Below are positions 1 to 5,753 of a DNA stretch of 5,753 nt, in pieces. The notes beneath the pieces were generated by a model. The model was not told the DNA's origin. It saw only the letters and a list, made by a program, of their open reading frames with translations, and did not search any database. Origin of the DNA: Desulfovibrio sp. OttesenSCG-928-G15 (GTDB lineage: Bacteria; Desulfobacterota; Desulfovibrionia; Desulfovibrionales; Desulfovibrionaceae); contig JAJDIC010000108.1 in NCBI GenBank assembly GCA_030266525.1, positions 1 to 5,753 of the forward strand, given 5' to 3'. The first letter of the stretch is position 1; each line of letters opens with the position of its first letter. The position numbers and the translations under genes were made by a program.

Positions 1-1871
1 CAGTCAGGGCAGGAATGGGCAGGAGTCTGGGTAGAACCGTTGCCGCTCCCCAAAATCGGAGCCAGCAGTTCCGGCAGAATCCTGATTTGCTCTGTCATGA
101 AATTTGCCAGGGTTTCTTTGCTTTGGGCTATGGCTTCCAACCGGCTCTCCCATGAGGCGGTCGTTATCGGGTCTTTCAAAGAGGTCGGCGTCATGTCGAT
201 AATGTCCTGGCCGAGTTTTGTGGACACGATGGCTTTTTTGTCGGCAATCAGGAACTGCCGCTGTTTCAGGGTTTCAAGAATCCCGGCGCGAGTTGCCTCT
301 GTGCCTATGCCTTCATTTTCCTTCAGCACGGACTTTGCCGCCGCATCGGCCACAAAGCGGTGGACGTTGGCCATAGCCTCAATCAAGGTGCCTTCTGTGA
401 ATCTGGAAGGCGGTGAAGTCTTTTTCTTGAGCGTCCGCACGTCCCGGCAGTGAACTTTTTCCCCTTGTTTGACCAAAGGCAGAGCCTGTTCCTGCTCGCC
501 GTCCTGCGCGTCAGAATCGTCGCTGTTACCGGAAACGGCAGTCCATCCGGCTTCAAGGATTTGCCGCCCTTTGGCTTCCCACAGCGTATTGCCCCCTTGG
601 GCATTCGGAATGGTTAGCGTGATCTTTTGCGCCTCATAGCGCATGGGTGGGTAGAATTGCAGGCAATACGCAGAGGCAATCAGGGAGAACAAGGAGCGTT
701 CCGCGTTGGTCAGGTTCCCCGGCATTTCGCCCGTGGGAATAATGGCATGGTGGGCCGTGACCTTTTTGGTGTTCCAAGCAGAGCTTTTCAGCTTCGCATC
801 CGCTTTGAGCGCAAGGGTATCCAGATTGGGAATACCGGAAAGGTTTGCGAGTATCGTCTTGGCGGCATCAAACTGTTCTTCCGGAAGGTAGCGGCAGTCT
901 GTGCGGGGATAGGTGGTCAATTTCTTATCGTACAAGGCTTGCGCGGTATCGAGAACCTGTTTGGCGGTCAGGTTGAGTTTCGCAGAAGCTTCCTTTTGCA
1001 AAGACGAAAGGCAGTGCGGCAGCGGCGCAGCTTTGCTTTTGTTCTCTCGCACGGAATGGGTGACTGTGCCATCCGCGCCTTTTGCCGCTTCGGCCAAAGC
1101 ATTGGCAACGACGCCATCGGTAAGGCGTCCGCTTGTGTCCAGTCCGGCTTGCGTTTCAGCGGGAACGAACATGGCCGAGAACTCCCCGCCGGTCAGAGGC
1201 GTGAGATAGGCCCGCAGCACATAATAATCAGAAGAAACAAAAGACGTGATTTCTCTGTCACGGGCTACAACCAGAGCCAACGTGGGCGTCTGCACCCGGC
1301 CAAGGGACAAAACTTCTCCGCCCCGGCCAGTTTCCCGCCCCATGATGGTCATGGCCCTTGTGGCGTTCATGCCAATAAGCCAATCGGCCTGCATTCTGGC
1401 ACGGGCAGAATCACGCAGCGGCGCGTACTTGGCGTTGTCCGTCATGCCGTCCAGGGCTTTCTTCACGGAGCAATCATCCAGAGAGGCCAGCCAGATTCGC
1501 TCCACCGGTCCTTTGTAGCCAAAATGCTCCAGCACTTCGTCAATGAGCAGTTGTCCTTCCCTGTCCGGATCGCCCGCGTTGACAACCGACTTGGCTTCAC
1601 GCAGAAGCTTGCCGATGACCTTGAGTTGCGCTGCCGCGCTGCGTTTGGTCTTGTACTTCCATGCTGCCGGGATAATCGGAAGATGCTCACGCTTCCATGA
1701 GGCAAATTCCGGGGAATAATCTTCGGGATACGCTGGCTCAAGCATGTGCCCGAAGCACCATGTCACGGTGTCGTTCCCGCATTTGATGAACCCGCCGCCG
1801 CTACTGCCTTTTCCCAGACCGGCGGCAATGGCTTTGCCCAGGTTCGGCTTTTCCGCAATAAACAGTCTCAT
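1..1871 (-). CDS. topB: DNA topoisomerase III (type IA), C-terminus cut by window edge
   Basis: Type IA topoisomerases cut one DNA strand through a 5'-phosphotyrosine and pass another strand, decatenating replication or transfer intermediates in the cytoplasm. The minus frame from ATG at 1871 is open to the edge, giving 623 residues. Seen in it: the Toprim domain with the EKPNLGKA start (Glu7) and DPDREGQ (Asp101, Asp103, Glu105); SLGRVQTPTL at 189-198; the active-site motif TTYPRTDCRYLPE with Tyr321; HHAIIPT at 374-380; and GIGTEATRA near residue 520. The last visible residues are SCPD followed by TG, as if a CPxC zinc ribbon begins, which is common in plasmid-type enzymes. E. coli TopB is about 650 residues, so little beyond the core is missing unless a zinc-ribbon tail follows. 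The start sits 3 bases after the ardC stop, with a modest GAGG 9 bases upstream inside ardC, so translation is probably coupled. The gene could equally be named traE-like. The family call is very secure. Confidence 0.96.
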   Translation of the reverse strand, partial: MRLFIAEKPNLGKAIAAGLGKGSSGGGFIKCGNDTVTWCFGHMLEPAYPEDYSPEFASWKREHLPIIPAAWKYKTKRSAAAQLKVIGKLLREAKSVVNAGDPDREGQLLIDEVLEHFGYKGPVERIWLASLDDCSVKKALDGMTDNAKYAPLRDSARARMQADWLIGMNATRAMTIMGRETGRGGEVLSLGRVQTPTLALVVARDREITSFVSSDYYVLRAYLTPLTGGEFSAMFVPAETQAGLDTSGRLTDGVVANALAEAAKGADGTVTHSVRENKSKAAPLPHCLSSLQKEASAKLNLTAKQVLDTAQALYDKKLTTYPRTDCRYLPEEQFDAAKTILANLSGIPNLDTLALKADAKLKSSAWNTKKVTAHHAIIPTGEMPGNLTNAERSLFSLIASAYCLQFYPPMRYEAQKITLTIPNAQGGNTLWEAKGRQILEAGWTAVSGNSDDSDAQDGEQEQALPLVKQGEKVHCRDVRTLKKKTSPPSRFTEGTLIEAMANVHRFVADAAAKSVLKENEGIGTEATRAGILETLKQRQFLIADKKAIVSTKLGQDIIDMTPTSLKDPITTASWESRLEAIAQSKETLANFMTEQIRILPELLAPILGSGNGSTQTPAHSCPD

Positions 1872-1874
1872 GGC

Positions 1875-3260
1875 TTACATCCTCATCCGCGACGGCGCGG
1901 CCTGTTGTTCTGGGGGAACCGGTGTTGCTTCCTCGCGGGATTGCATGTCCAGCTCCATGTGGAGAGCCTGCGAGAGCGTATCGCAAAGCGAAGCCAGCTC
2001 ACGCGCCGCATTGGGGTCTTGCTGGAGGGCCATGTTCAGGAAATCGGGGTTTTGGAGTATCAAGCGGGCTTTGGCCACGGAATCGTCCGTTTCCTTAAAA
2101 GCGGCGGCAGATTCCGCGAATGTGAGAGGCACAGGGCGCGGTTCGGAAGTTTGGGAACCTTCCTGCGGGAGACTGTGAAAATCCGCTCCGGTGGCGGCGT
2201 CCCGCTCTTTTTGCATGGCAACCAGTTCCGGCCAGGCTTCACTTTTGGGAAACCAGCGGGCGGTAGGTTGCTCACCAGCCTCAAACTGGCGCATGGTGGT
2301 CAGCACCCTGGCCGCTTCGTTTGCTGCCTGAAAAACCGCCTTTACATCCCCACCGGAAAACTTCTGGTTCCAGTGGTCGATGTATGCTGCCGAATTGCTT
2401 TCGGGCATGGGCAAATTGAGTCTGGCCCCGGCCAGCATGGAAAACATTTCTGCCCGCATTTCTTCATAAGCGTAGCCTTTGAGCGTTGGCAGTTGTCTGT
2501 CCTTCCGGTTTTCCCGCGATTCATGACCAGTGGCATGGTAAAATTCATGCAGTTTGGTGGCGTAATACTCATCGGTGCCGGTGAAACGATCCGGAAACGG
2601 CATTTTCACCATATCCTCGGCGGGTTTGTAGTAGGCATCACCACTATGATGCTCAACAGGAATTGCCGAACTGGCGATAAAGCGTTCCACAAACTCGTTG
2701 CGCTCAATGGCTGTCATGGTGTGGGCAGGCTGTTCTTTTGGCGGGAAGCCTTCCACTTGCGCGGCATTGAATACCGTGAACGGATAAAAGAGTATTTTGC
2801 GCTGAATGTCGGGAACTTCCTGCCCCTGCTCCTTCATTTCCGCAAACTGCTTGAGTTCTTCCGGGGTGTGGAATTTCCATTTCCCGTCTTCATCAACGGA
2901 GAAGGTAATTTCTTCCGGACGCAGGAGTTTGACGCCGTGTTCCCCTTTTTTTATTTTCATTTTCAGGTCGGGCTTATCCTCCTGAAATTTTTGAAGCTGC
3001 TTGAACGTCATCCAGCGGTCATCTTCATGCCCCTGAACAATACTGGTCAGCATCAGGCGAACCATATTTGCACCGCCATACTCTCTGCCGGTCATGGGGC
3101 AAAAAGGCATTCCCATCGGCGCATCGGAAGTCCAGGGCTTTTTCCATTCACCGGCCTTTTCCGCGAGTGAAAGCATGGTTTCGGCAACGCCGTTGACAAA
3201 TTCCTCCTGAACTTCACGGCTTATCTGGAAGCGATTCTTTTTTTCCGGTGTCTGGCTCAT
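1875..3260 (-). CDS. ardC: ArdC-type antirestriction protein with zincin metallopeptidase domain and C-terminal extension
   Basis: ArdC proteins of conjugative plasmids bind single-stranded DNA and protect it from host restriction nucleases on entry; the C-terminal zincin domain is metal-binding. This protein has 461 residues. Residues about 11-165 match the N-terminal ssDNA-binding domain (DUF1738 type), with EWKKPW, a TGREYGGAN stretch and DRWMTFKQLQ. Residues about 175-325 form the zincin domain, with LHEFYH at 237-242 (His238, Glu239, His242), then TGHESR and GYAYEEMRAE at 262-271, whose Glu267 or Glu271 is the likely third metal ligand. Residues about 330-461 are an Ala/Glu/Gln-rich extension beyond the roughly 300-residue classical ArdC, and I do not recognise them. 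I chose ATG 3260 over ATG 3275 because it forms an ATGA overlap with the upstream gene's stop and lies 4 bases after GGGGAGG; the upstream ATG would place that site inside the gene. Part of one operon with topB. The antirestriction role is inferred from family. Confidence 0.92.
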   Translation of the reverse strand: MSQTPEKKNRFQISREVQEEFVNGVAETMLSLAEKAGEWKKPWTSDAPMGMPFCPMTGREYGGANMVRLMLTSIVQGHEDDRWMTFKQLQKFQEDKPDLKMKIKKGEHGVKLLRPEEITFSVDEDGKWKFHTPEELKQFAEMKEQGQEVPDIQRKILFYPFTVFNAAQVEGFPPKEQPAHTMTAIERNEFVERFIASSAIPVEHHSGDAYYKPAEDMVKMPFPDRFTGTDEYYATKLHEFYHATGHESRENRKDRQLPTLKGYAYEEMRAEMFSMLAGARLNLPMPESNSAAYIDHWNQKFSGGDVKAVFQAANEAARVLTTMRQFEAGEQPTARWFPKSEAWPELVAMQKERDAATGADFHSLPQEGSQTSEPRPVPLTFAESAAAFKETDDSVAKARLILQNPDFLNMALQQDPNAARELASLCDTLSQALHMELDMQSREEATPVPPEQQAAPSRMRM

Positions 3261-3469
3261 ACATCCTCCCCGCATACATCAATAATGGCGGTATCCGGCT
3301 CTTCCTGCGGATTGATGAAGCCCGCCGCTATCGCTTCTTCGCGCTCCAAGATGAAAGCCCCGGCATCTCGCTGACGCTCAATGGCTTCCGGGGTGAACGT
3401 GACATGCTCTTTTCCGGCCCCACGCACAGGGGCATCAAAAAGCCCATAGCTATTGCGTTCCGTAGTCAT
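3257..3469 (-). CDS. Small acidic hypothetical protein, 70 residues
   Basis: I do not recognise this protein. It has 70 residues, is rich in Asp and Glu, has no membrane segment and no signal peptide, and its only Cys is near the C-terminus (VCGEDV). The central stretch (VTFTPEAIERQRD and the Glu/Ala-rich part after it) should form a helix. Coding status is supported by a strong AGGAGG 4 bases before ATG, lack of a better frame here, and the ATGA overlap joining its stop to the start of ardC. The coupling suggests it is made with the antirestriction protein and might act with it, but no function can be assigned. It lies 33 bases after the icmT-like gene. Confidence 0.75.
   Translation of the reverse strand: MTTERNSYGLFDAPVRGAGKEHVTFTPEAIERQRDAGAFILEREEAIAAGFINPQEEPDTAIIDVCGEDV
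3265..3271 (-). promoter_or_regulatory. Ribosome binding site deciding the ardC start
   Basis: GGGGAGG on the minus strand, 4 bases before the ATG at 3260. It lies inside the end of the 70-residue gene and would fall within the coding region if the ATG at 3275 were used. It therefore fixes the ardC start at the ATGA overlap. Confidence 0.75.
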
Positions 3470-3473
3470 AAAA

Positions 3474-3479
3474 CCTCCT
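3474..3479 (-). promoter_or_regulatory. Strong ribosome binding site of the 70-residue gene
   Basis: AGGAGG on the minus strand, 4 bases before the ATG at 3469, in the 33-base gap after the icmT/traK-like stop. It is the main evidence that this small frame is translated. Confidence 0.72.
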
Positions 3480-3502
3480 GTATGGATTATGGGAAACGGC
3501 TC

Positions 3503-3775
3503 TTACCAGCGGCACCGCTTGCGCCACTGCATTTCGTTGTTTCTCGTTTCCCGGCGTCGACCCAGATAGGCAACGCGCAGAGCGCGAAAGCAGGCAAGCG
3601 GCGACATGCCGGTGCGCTGCACCAGATACAAAATCAACATCCCCGAGACAGCGATTCCCGCCGTCCACCAAGCCCAATGAAAAAGCCACAGTGCCAATGG
3701 GAAAATGGCACGGGCATCCAGTATGAAAATCTTTGGGGCAATACCGGTGTCCCTCCAGAGAACTTCACCAGCCAT
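3503..3775 (-). CDS. traK: IcmT/TraK-like component of an I-type (Dot/Icm) type IV secretion system
   Basis: This 90-residue protein looks like IcmT of the Legionella Dot/Icm apparatus and its IncI plasmid R64 counterpart TraK, small inner-membrane proteins needed by type IVB secretion and conjugation. The visible family pattern is WRDTG near the N-terminus (7-11), then a K-I-F...DARA-FPL segment (15-26), an aromatic HWAWWT block (33-38), a second hydrophobic stretch to about residue 52, and a basic tail with FRALR and GRRR (63-75). The hydrophobic span 23-52 is long enough for one or two membrane passes, and the basic tail is probably cytoplasmic. Usual family length is 85-95 residues, so it is complete. 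A strong AGGAGG lies 5 bases before ATG. It stands apart from other secretion genes in this window, between the radical SAM gene and the small gene before ardC. The symbol follows R64 usage; icmT would be as fitting. Confidence 0.88.
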   Translation of the reverse strand: MAGEVLWRDTGIAPKIFILDARAIFPLALWLFHWAWWTAGIAVSGMLILYLVQRTGMSPLACFRALRVAYLGRRRETRNNEMQWRKRCRW

Positions 3776-3780
3776 GAAAA

Positions 3781-3786
3781 CCTCCT
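3781..3786 (-). promoter_or_regulatory. Strong ribosome binding site of the icmT/traK-like gene
   Basis: AGGAGG on the minus strand, 5 bases before the ATG at 3775, in the 35-base gap after the radical SAM stop. The 10-base string AGGAGGTTTT here is repeated before the next gene, so both start regions share the same design. Confidence 0.75.
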
Positions 3787-3810
3787 TTTATTGATTGCGC
3801 AGGGGCAGAC

Positions 3811-4749
3811 TCACGCCGCCAGCCTGCGTCTTATTCGCTCCTGTTCCCAATAGTCGGGCCACAAAATGGATTTGAATAACGCCTTGTGATTCACCCAGCG
3901 GCAATAGAGGCGTTGCTTTACGGTCGGTTCCGTGTTGCAGGAGAAATCCCGGTATGCCTGCGCGAATGGCGCAAGCCCCAAGCCACGCAAGAACATGGTT
4001 CGCTCGTAGGCTTCGTCCACATCAGTCACAAGGACGTAACAAAAGTATTCTTTGGGTTTGGCCCCCGCAGCGCGGAGAAGGCGCACGGCTTTTTCCACAA
4101 CCGGCATTTGACTCTTCTGGTCACAGGCCAAACGAAGCGGTTTGAACCAGCCCAGAGCTGCCAGACGGCGGGCTACCTGCCCGTCGATTCGTCTGGCGTC
4201 AAGCCCTTGGTTGAAGTCAACGCGCAGGCCGAGCCGGATCATTTTTTCAATTTGGGTGATACCGTGGTCGTGAGCCAGCGCGTTATTGTCCAGCAGAACA
4301 ACATGCCGGTGACGACAAAATTCCTCGACATCAGCATGGGCGCGAATTTGCCCTTCTTTTTGGGGAACGATGCACCAAGCGCAGCTATTGACACAGCCCC
4401 GTGTGGTGAACCCCAAGCTGTATCCCGGTTCAGGGCGTTTTCTCCTGCTGTTCCGGCGTTCGTGTACATGCTGATAAATGGAGTAATCAGGGCAGATATG
4501 CTCAACGGCATCCGGCAAGGTATGAAAAAGCCCATAGCCGGTTCCAGACTTGACGGCCCAGGGCAGCAGGCTGGAATCTTCCGGCGTCCACGAAAAGACC
4601 TTGCTGGAGAATACCCGATCATACCGAAGGGCTTCATCCGGCGCGTACCAAACAACCTCATGCCCTTGATGCTTGTGCCACGCGGCAATTTTCATCAAAG
4701 CCAGATTCGGGAAATTGGTATCGTCAGAATCATGCAGGGCAATAAGCAT
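3811..4749 (-). CDS. Radical SAM protein of unknown reaction, mobile-element type
   Basis: Radical SAM enzymes use a [4Fe-4S] cluster to cleave S-adenosylmethionine and start radical chemistry. The protein has 312 residues. The N-terminal ~100 residues look like a Rossmann-type, B12-binding-like domain (FPNLALMKIAAWHK, then YDRVFSSKVFSWT and SGTGYGL), but I see no DxHxxG cobalamin motif. The cluster motif CVNSCAWC gives Cys119, Cys123 and Cys126 in CX3CX2C spacing after TTRG. The rest is a partial barrel (LLDNNALA, DFNQGLDARRID) ending in a conserved-looking RWVNHKALFK block. From memory, similar proteins occur in phages and conjugative elements, often near PAPS-reductase-like genes. I chose ATG 4749 rather than 4803 because GGAGGG lies 4 bases upstream and the protein then begins at the family-like MLIALHDSD; it overlaps the upstream gene by 20 bases. 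Extra Cys271 and Cys283 could hold another cluster, which is only a guess. Substrate unknown. Confidence 0.88.
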   Translation of the reverse strand: MLIALHDSDDTNFPNLALMKIAAWHKHQGHEVVWYAPDEALRYDRVFSSKVFSWTPEDSSLLPWAVKSGTGYGLFHTLPDAVEHICPDYSIYQHVHERRNSRRKRPEPGYSLGFTTRGCVNSCAWCIVPQKEGQIRAHADVEEFCRHRHVVLLDNNALAHDHGITQIEKMIRLGLRVDFNQGLDARRIDGQVARRLAALGWFKPLRLACDQKSQMPVVEKAVRLLRAAGAKPKEYFCYVLVTDVDEAYERTMFLRGLGLAPFAQAYRDFSCNTEPTVKQRLYCRWVNHKALFKSILWPDYWEQERIRRRLAA

Positions 4750-5560
4750 CTTGCCCTCCGCTTGTCTCGACCTCGCTTGCTTCCTCCGCATCTTCGGCGG
4801 CAAATCTGGCTTCCAACGCAGCTACGGACGGAGCGTGGTTAAAGCGCCGTCCCTTGTCGATTTCAGGAAGCCAGGAATCCATTTCCAGCATCCGCTGCCA
4901 TAGGTCAGGAAAAAACCAACGAAGTTTCCGTAGTTCCTCCAAGGATTGCAGGGGGCAACAAAAGCAACTCACGCGCCGAAACCGGCGATACAAACCGCTC
5001 CAAGTAAAACCGAGCTTTTTGCAGTATCTGAGAGCATCGGCCTCGGTAATGCCCCATTCCACCAAGGGATACCGCTGCACATGATAGGTGCTGTCTTTTT
5101 TGGTTGGTCCATCCAGCCGTCCAAGTTCATCAGCAGCGAAACCAACACACTGTTGCAGCGGAAGCGCGAACCCCTGTCTATGCGTCAGTGCCCGCAAATG
5201 CGCCCGTAAAGCCTCTTGTTTTCGCCCCGTACACCAGCGAATGCCGGGCGAAGGCCAATAACGACCAATTCGGTGAACATGGCGTGTCCCACGCTTGACC
5301 ACCGGGTACTCCGAGAACATCCAATCAAAAGGCGTTTTTTCAGTAACAACACCAACGGGAAGCCTGGGCCGCAAACGTGTAATTTTCCGTCCAATGAGCT
5401 GTTCCACTTTCTCCAAGTGTTCGTGCATCTGCGGAAATTCCCACCCGCCATCAAAAAACACGATGTCGGCAATGGGTTCCCCACGCTCCAGAAGCATAAA
5501 GAGCATGGCCGTGCTGTCCTTGCCGCCAGAAAACGAAACCACATTCGCAAGCTGGCCCAT
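4730..5560 (-). CDS. PAPS-reductase-like PP-loop ATP pyrophosphatase, function unknown
   Basis: This 276-residue protein belongs to the adenine nucleotide alpha-hydrolase superfamily that includes CysH, DndC and thiolating tRNA enzymes. SFSGGKDSTAML (residues 9-20) is the PP-loop that binds the ATP pyrophosphate. FFDGGWEFP (35-43) follows, then RWCTGRK with Cys110, a CVGFAADE segment with Cys138, YPLVEWGIT (164-172), and a CFCCPLQSLEELRKL element with Cys199, Cys201 and Cys202. The Cys-rich set is reminiscent of iron-sulfur members such as DndC, so a cluster is possible but not shown. From memory, this variant with YPL-EWG and C-CCPLQ occurs in phages and conjugative elements, usually annotated only as PAPS reductase. 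A role in sulfate assimilation is unlikely in this context. The start overlaps the upstream stop as TAATG, with GGAGG 7 bases before ATG. The end overlaps the radical SAM gene by 20 bases, so the two are coupled and probably work together. Confidence 0.88.
   Translation of the reverse strand: MGQLANVVSFSGGKDSTAMLFMLLERGEPIADIVFFDGGWEFPQMHEHLEKVEQLIGRKITRLRPRLPVGVVTEKTPFDWMFSEYPVVKRGTRHVHRIGRYWPSPGIRWCTGRKQEALRAHLRALTHRQGFALPLQQCVGFAADELGRLDGPTKKDSTYHVQRYPLVEWGITEADALRYCKKLGFTWSGLYRRFRRVSCFCCPLQSLEELRKLRWFFPDLWQRMLEMDSWLPEIDKGRRFNHAPSVAALEARFAAEDAEEASEVETSGGQDAYCPA
4754..4759 (-). promoter_or_regulatory. Ribosome binding site deciding the radical SAM start
   Basis: GGAGGG on the minus strand, 4 bases before the ATG at 4749, placed in the last codons of the PP-loop gene. 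It argues against the longer reading from 4803, which would add 18 basic residues unlike the family's start. Confidence 0.75.
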
Positions 5561-5753
5561 TACAGTGCCTCCAAAGGAGCGCCCATCATGGGGTCAATTT
5601 CCAGATAAAAGCTGTCGCTATCATCTCCCACTTCCGTTTTCGGCTGCGGCAAGCGCATGTGCAGGCGGGCCATTCCTGTTTTTGGGTCAGGCAACGGCAA
5701 CGCCCGCAGGAGCAGATTGAAAGAGTCGTCCTTGTTTTGGAATGCCGCGCCCA
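5560..5753 (-). CDS. C-terminal end of a small hypothetical protein, start outside window
   Basis: The minus frame is open from the window edge to TAA at 5562-5560, giving 63 residues with no start needed inside. It begins GAAFQNKDDSFNLLLRALPL, continues with a GMARLHMRLPQPK stretch, and ends in DPMMGAPLEAL. The first part resembles a short motif (G-A-NKD-FN-L-A-PL) that I recall from small uncharacterised proteins of conjugative plasmids; that is memory, not a search. No Cys, no membrane segment. Its stop overlaps the start of the PP-loop gene (TAATG), so it is the upstream member of the same operon and translation is likely coupled. An internal ATG start is conceivable, but nothing supports one. 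Confidence 0.6.
   Translation of the reverse strand, partial: GAAFQNKDDSFNLLLRALPLPDPKTGMARLHMRLPQPKTEVGDDSDSFYLEIDPMMGAPLEAL

Follow-up and report, generated by a model that had tools for sequence, protein, structure and literature searches.

An optional pair of genes, encoding a PP-loop (PAPS-reductase-like) enzyme and a radical SAM enzyme (rSAM), lies in one defined slot of the transfer operon in a group of type IVB (I-type) conjugative elements, and direct adjacency of the two genes recurs in unrelated mobile elements. We describe the pair in a stretch of 5,753 nucleotides from Desulfovibrio sp. OttesenSCG-928-G15 (GenBank assembly GCA_030266525.1, contig JAJDIC010000108.1, positions 1 to 5,753), hereafter the window. 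Our tentative reading is that the two enzymes form an optional modification module, which the I-type (type IVB) element carries as cargo in a fixed slot and which most likely acts on nucleic acid. Both families are known, but we know of no explained function for either, and our searches of open-licence papers turned up none that treats this pair.

Organization of the transfer region

The window lies within the transfer genes of a conjugative element of the I type (type IVB), and every gene described here is on its minus strand. The features, in the order of transcription, are as follows.

5560..5751, minus strand: C-terminal 63 aa of a small, conserved protein of the element, with a complete 98-aa homologue at the equivalent position in locus L485
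5568..5572, minus strand: Shine-Dalgarno sequence GGAGG of the PP-loop gene, seven bases 5' of its ATG
4730..5560, minus strand: PP-loop (PAPS-reductase-like) enzyme, 276 aa, ATG start (PF01507, E = 8.7e-12; phrog_424, 8.9e-43; SspD model, 2.6e-19)
4754..4759, minus strand: Shine-Dalgarno sequence GGAGGG of the rSAM gene, within the PP-loop gene, four bases 5' of the rSAM ATG
4730..4749, minus strand: overlap of the PP-loop and rSAM genes, exactly 20 bases
3811..4749, minus strand: rSAM, 312 aa, ATG start (phrog_9298, 2.6e-74; CX3CX2C motif; N-terminal Rossmann-like domain)
3503..3775, minus strand: IcmT/TraK family transfer protein (NF038220, 1.3e-24, over cut-off)
3257..3469, minus strand: 70-aa protein conserved across these elements (cluster c14)
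1875..3260, minus strand: ArdC-type antirestriction protein (PF08401, 5.8e-17; PF18818, 2.4e-30)
3..1871, minus strand: DNA topoisomerase III (TopB), open at the window edge (NF005829, 1.4e-204)

A first-pass annotation, made from the sequence alone, had described two genes that overlap by 20 bases, each with its own Shine-Dalgarno site and with intact SGGKDS and CX3CX2C motifs, and the window sequence confirmed all of this. Its placement of the pair inside a conjugative transfer operon, next to ardC, also held: IcmT/TraK, ArdC and topoisomerase III follow, a DotB/TraJ-like ATPase precedes in relatives, and ardC (3260-1875) lies downstream of the IcmT/TraK and 70-aa genes. Only 35 bases separate the rSAM gene from the IcmT/TraK start. 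The two enzyme genes are translationally coupled. Because the ATG of the PP-loop gene overlaps the stop codon of the preceding gene (TAATG), the PP-loop gene is also coupled in translation to that gene, which encodes the small element protein (98 aa when complete; window 5560-5751, L485:7410-7706). The 63-aa window fragment is 60% identical to its L485 homologue over 65 columns (E = 2e-27); the homologue had no PHROG match and the fragment no Pfam match. For the rSAM gene, a TTG at 4803 would give a protein of 330 aa, and the ATG at 4749 is the better start because GGAGGG lies four bases ahead of it.

Both genes are more than chance open reading frames, given the thousands of homologues of their products (2966 and 4461 of the scored candidates at E 0.001) and the signs of purifying selection. 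Both proteins are 86-89% identical to their counterparts in L087 and G118. The nucleotide differences fall on 34-36% of third codon positions and on 5-15% of first and second positions, a concentration at third positions that indicates such selection. The nearest locus with an organism name is a Desulfovibrio metagenome-assembled genome (L087; rSAM identity 88%).

A cargo slot with four states

Membership of the element in the I-type (type IVB) class follows from the IcmT/TraK match in the window together with the matches in a locus of the same gene order (L479). In that locus, DotA/TraY, DotM_C and T4SS_TraI all scored over their cut-offs, and the best equivalog for the DotB/TraJ-like ATPase was DotB, at 5.1e-77 and below its cut-off. 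With an E-value limit of 1e-80, the DotB/TraJ-like ATPase was found at 28 places in 24 of the 288 same-family genomes searched. The downstream flank was analysed at 27 of them, one (G194) being left out at a contig edge, and the window was added to give n = 28; its own DotB lies outside the window sequence, at a position inferred from relatives. The order DotB/TraJ, slot, IcmT/TraK, small gene, ArdC, TopB was found at 23 of the 27 places, and the remaining four had DotB followed by IcmT/TraK only.

Across the 28 slots, neither gene was present in 18, PP-loop alone in six, PP-loop with a Dam methyltransferase in one and PP-loop with rSAM in three (the window, L087 and L552). The rSAM gene was never found in the slot without the PP-loop gene, all three rSAM slots falling among the ten of 28 that hold a PP-loop gene (p = 0.037). 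Where Dam is present, a phage-type methyltransferase (PF05869; L490:6051-6566, minus strand) lies directly 3' of the PP-loop gene, in the rSAM position. In another element (L542), a Dam gene sits between ArdC and TopB. It seems that the transfer operon has several cargo slots.

We considered a PP-loop/Dam fusion after positions 304-434 of the phrog_33262 profile, which bears the name PAPS reductase, had aligned with the Dam protein from L490; the fusion is unproven and was set aside. In Salmonella phage iEPS5, the gene called "phosphoadenosine phosphosulfate reductase" (L553:2426-3130) consists of a Dam methyltransferase domain only, and no PP-loop was found in it or in three neighbouring genes of this one phage record. 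Its name is probably a misannotation that stems from a mixed protein family.

Direct adjacency of PP-loop and rSAM genes

A survey of rSAM homologues by HMM yielded 160 loci from virus contigs and genomes. A PP-loop gene was present in the fetched stretch at 39 of these, within 2 kb at 34 and directly adjacent (-250 to +320 bases) at 26. After dereplication, a PP-loop gene adjoined rSAM within 200 bases at 21/146 loci, compared with 0/72 for DUF5131 and 0/58 for the large terminase (TerL). For a third control, one C5-methyltransferase type, the count was 6/28, which does not differ significantly from rSAM and marks the PP-loop gene as a promiscuous neighbour. The iterated PP-loop model used here had been trained on rSAM neighbours, so Pfam checks were added. 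One of them took proteins of 100-1200 aa encoded immediately beside the anchor gene on the same strand, at a gap of -300 to +300, and used 110 rSAM neighbours drawn at random from 193, with L001-L006 left out of the draw. PF01507 was the commonest Pfam family (14/110). For 89 DUF5131 neighbours, 25 of 37 families were listed and PF01507 was not among them; an SGGxDS motif or a match to the PP-loop model was likewise found in 0/89 (14/110 versus 0/89, p = 1.7e-4, or 1.3e-3 if one match were hidden).

The next families beside rSAM were N6_N4_Mtase and C5 DNA_methylase (5/110 each). Among the listed families, DNA methylases summed to 12/110 (5 + 5 + 2) for rSAM versus 3/89 (2 + 1) for DUF5131 (p = 0.04, rising to 0.08 if one match was missed), sums that may count a neighbour twice between families. 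DNA methylases as rSAM-specific neighbours were rejected: their HMM clusters are equally common within 5 kb of DUF5131, so only their direct adjacency counts, as weak support. Such methylases are common around accessory genes of this kind in general. One further neighbour cluster, cluster 19, proved to be an antisense artefact of the rSAM gene itself.

Set against this is the possibility that the two genes are independent cargo sharing accessory regions, their adjacency reflecting hot slots rather than joint function. Each gene is indeed found mostly without the other. In the 288 genomes of one family, with scoring limited to the 8 or 9 top candidates in each, rSAM was present in nine and had a PP-loop gene directly beside it in five; around close relatives of the PP-loop gene, rSAM lay within 10 kb at 3/60 loci and was adjacent at one. 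On virus contigs of at least 20 kb, PF01507 over cut-off co-resided equally with rSAM (9/50) and with DUF5131 (9/50; 12/50 at E 0.001), and it was found on 1/27 contigs with TerL (3/27 at E 0.001). PP-loop genes also stand beside C5-methyltransferases and, in phages, terminase genes. Proximity argues the other way. Direct adjacency is specific relative to two of the three controls (DUF5131 and TerL), and PP-loop density falls faster with distance from rSAM (58 per Mb within 2 kb, 4.5 at 2-10 kb) than from DUF5131 (34 and 14 per Mb). Adjacency is, moreover, scattered across both gene trees, in both gene orders and with different PP-loop subtypes. We consider independent cargo unlikely. Orientation was uninformative, the same-strand arrangement of rSAM and PP-loop (39/39) being matched by controls (21/21, 4/4 and 10/10). 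No fusion of the two was detected: of 40 matches to a joined query among 7996 scored candidates, none exceeded 54% coverage, and no open reading frame in the fetched loci matched both models.

On the rSAM tree, 25 of 147 rows are adjacent, which takes 20 changes; well-supported branches force at least 17 of these. The PP-loop gene is upstream in 18 rows and downstream in seven. Adjacency on the PP-loop tree (90 rows) needs 11 changes, 7 of them forced. These counts cover gains and losses alike and come from quick trees with long branches (L150, L001, L004, L003 and others for rSAM; L079, L267, L152 and L027 for PP-loop). The PP-loop partners of rSAM belong to several cysteine-motif subtypes. 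Several separate gains are likely, because two gene orders and several subtypes are hard to derive from one ancestral pair; the pair was thus likely assembled separately several times. This repeated pairing is the best evidence that PP-loop and rSAM function jointly.

Taken together, the specificity of the pairing lies in direct adjacency; the pairing is nevertheless optional, and each gene is usually alone. The earlier proposal of joint action stands in part: direct adjacency recurs in unrelated elements above two of three controls, but wider co-occurrence is sparse, as the 39/160 and 3/60 loci and the equal counts on virus contigs illustrate.

A PP-loop protein with a thiolation-type cysteine triad

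The PP-loop protein belongs to the PAPS_reduct family (PF01507, over cut-off) and carries SGGKDS at residues 11-16 and cysteines C110, C199 and C202. Across 134 aligned rows, which were preselected for SGGxDS so that conservation of that motif carries no test value, the three cysteines are kept in 123, 125 and 124 rows, respectively. This C...CxxC triad is the pattern expected of a [4Fe-4S] site of the thiolation type, and it supports the relatedness to sulfur-inserting enzymes put forward in the first-pass annotation. Among the closest matches of the predicted fold are NcsA, TtuA and 4-thiouridine synthetase, and there is also resemblance to LarE, YcfA and CysH.

Assimilatory PAPS/APS reductases (CysH) have a C-terminal catalytic cysteine motif, ECG[LIV]H. 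This motif is absent from the window protein and was found in 0/134 rows, and the NF002537 model reached only E 0.11. A role in ordinary sulfate assimilation is unlikely on these sequence grounds. Nor did a deazaguanine pathway of the QueC/QueE type hold up: QueC models scored below cut-off on the PP-loop protein (Pfam, 0.016; TIGR00364, 0.0077), and no QueE model was among the eight NCBIfam matches of rSAM at E 1. A selenocysteine in the PP-loop protein was also rejected, because the one in-frame TGA, reported for two genomes, was not borne out by tblastn, which showed no stop in the aligned gene there or in five other genomes.

Among defence systems, the closest likeness is to SspD of DNA phosphorothioation, the PADLOC model of which matches residues 6-242 (2.6e-19). 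SspB and SspC models had no match among 20 element proteins scanned. A PP-loop and three conserved cysteines are common to DndC and the window protein, yet the DndC model gave only 0.008. One report (PMC10853773) describes three cysteines for the [4Fe-4S] centre of DndC. DndE (PF08870) and DndB (PF14072) were missing from 10 of 11 carrier genomes, a set drawn from genomes other than the window's own, so there is no known Dnd targeting partner in those ten; the exception (G005) has both, on another contig. Together with the DndC score, this speaks against a Dnd phosphorothioation system.

The phage and plasmid family phrog_424 ('phosphoadenosine phosphosulfate reductase'), to which we know of no assigned function, matches residues 6-239 (8.9e-43); beyond it, the window element has the extra features of a fixed transfer-operon slot and a coupled rSAM gene. 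PAPS reductase homologues are described in various mobile elements in PMC11437467. The nearest phage relatives of the PP-loop protein (L001, L167-L246) often adjoin the large terminase, with 16 adjacencies for the terminase cluster over 60 dereplicated loci, and phage NatCom_21982 has the order terminase, PP-loop, portal.

A radical SAM protein without auxiliary-cluster cysteines

The rSAM protein is a member of phrog_9298 ('radical SAM domain protein'), from which it shows no sequence-level difference (residues 1-307 on profile positions 1-298 of 305, E 2.6e-74). Its CX3CX2C motif (C119/C123/C126) is kept in 212/212 rows and, with a predicted partial barrel, places it in the radical SAM superfamily; the Pfam model PF04055 remained below cut-off (0.083). 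A fourth barrel cysteine, C209, is kept in 185/212 rows, the others having mostly W, Y or A, and could serve as a hydrogen donor or substrate anchor.

The predicted fold resembles MiaB, TsrM, MgmA and AprD4. Methylthiotransferases hold an auxiliary [4Fe-4S] cluster on three N-terminal cysteines. These are missing from the window protein, whose sole cysteine in the N-terminal domain, C86, is a cysteine in 68/212 rows. The methylthiotransferase model TIGR00089 (E 0.016) fell far below cut-off and no TRAM domain was recognised by Pfam scan, so that rSAM differs from MiaB, MtaB and RimO. Judged from its sequence, it is not a classical methylthiotransferase, and the methylthiolation earlier suggested as its chemistry does not follow. 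Likeness to the cobalamin-type TsrM and MgmA and to AprD4 is in fold only: identities are 14-16%, and the window protein is much shorter. According to their PDB titles, these three act on tryptophan, a methyl-coenzyme M reductase glutamine and paromamine.

Several observations concern relatives elsewhere. A distant, longer relative (about 540 aa, E about 1e-22) occurs on rhizobial and Novosphingobium plasmids (L499, L500 and L501); the cassette that holds it recurs and also encodes ATP-binding proteins, a PIN-like protein and a protein with a DGQHR domain. On the archaeal plasmid P-10H_0 (L503), the rSAM annotation includes an N-terminal homing endonuclease of the intein type; three DNA methyltransferase genes follow, and a PAPS-reductase gene lies about 5 kb further. 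A module of Thermus phages Cumys and phiMa combines rSAM with DUF483, and its authors suggest possible unknown DNA modifications (PMC11437467). There the rSAM partner is DUF483, whereas in the window it is the PP-loop protein; at E 0.1, the window rSAM matched 16 records, none of them a Thermus phage.

Candidate substrates and a proposed two-step reaction

Within the modification-module reading, both enzymes probably act on a common target. We suggest, from its family and cysteine pattern, that the PP-loop protein would first adenylate a substrate site with ATP, and that a [4Fe-4S] cluster on C110, C199 and C202 would support sulfur insertion. Insertion of this type is reported for DndC, TtuA, NcsA and [4Fe-4S] LarE. 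Because most elements carrying the PP-loop gene lack the rSAM gene, the PP-loop protein could work alone. In a second step, the MiaB/TsrM-shaped rSAM may carry out a further C-H modification of the same substrate or product.

One candidate target is host tRNA or other RNA, in which thiolation and a radical step would counter RNA-cleaving defences or otherwise suit the element. Pairs of this kind act on RNA elsewhere (Ncs6 with Elp3, TtcA with MiaB). The fold relatives include RNA enzymes, namely MiaB for rSAM and NcsA, TtuA and 4-thiouridine synthetase for the PP-loop protein, and an RGCxxxCxxCIVPxxxG stretch of rSAM aligns with MiaB (a weak match, E 0.51). Against an RNA target, rSAM lacks the methylthiotransferase cysteines, and its Rossmann-like domain and barrel fill the 312 residues and would leave little space for a TRAM RNA-binding domain. 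The Pfam scan, moreover, recognised no THUMP or zinc-finger domain in the PP-loop protein, and the neighbouring genes are for DNA transfer, antirestriction and DNA methylation. We regard an RNA target as rather unlikely. In neither protein did the Pfam scan recognise an RNA- or DNA-binding domain.

Alternatively, the target could be other than nucleic acid: a protein (perhaps a modified transfer or defence protein), a nucleotide (perhaps a modified one) or another small molecule. Resemblance of rSAM to TsrM, MgmA and AprD4 would agree with this, as would that of the PP-loop protein to LarE, YcfA and CysH, which have small-molecule substrates. By contrast, no transporter or biosynthesis gene was recognised among the subset of genes scanned in the three pair-holding slots, and among the 25 of 63 rSAM neighbour families listed the only such candidate was the thymidylate synthase-like Thy1 (2/110). 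A target of this sort is unlikely.

For the favoured nucleic-acid substrate, DNA of the element would be more probable than RNA, and the modification may serve, alongside ArdC, to protect the element as it enters a new host. It is the neighbouring genes that point, weakly, to DNA: the slot lies among DNA-transfer genes beside ArdC, a Dam methyltransferase replaces rSAM in one element, and, after PF01507, it is DNA methylases that most often adjoin rSAM. SspD, as the defence model closest to the PP-loop protein, weakly favours DNA as well. In its boldest form, which we put forward as a somewhat doubtful proposal, this would be a two-step hypermodification: a PP-loop [4Fe-4S] thiolase would prime a base, or a site in the backbone, of DNA, for elaboration by a cofactor-poor rSAM resembling MiaB and TsrM, a combination repeatedly assembled in conjugative elements and phages from different PP-loop subtypes that would let the DNA escape restriction on transfer.

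What is new here is the evidence for a recurrent, optional PP-loop/rSAM pair and for one defined transfer-operon slot in this element group. Genes for PP-loop 'PAPS reductases' are common in phages and plasmids and have had no explanation. A recurrent rSAM partner narrows the options, in that radical chemistry probably acts on the product of the PP-loop enzyme. The four states of the slot (empty, PP-loop, PP-loop with Dam, and PP-loop with rSAM) form a natural comparative set for nucleic-acid modification. If the product were a new sulfur-containing base, it would add an extra class to the known DNA modifications.
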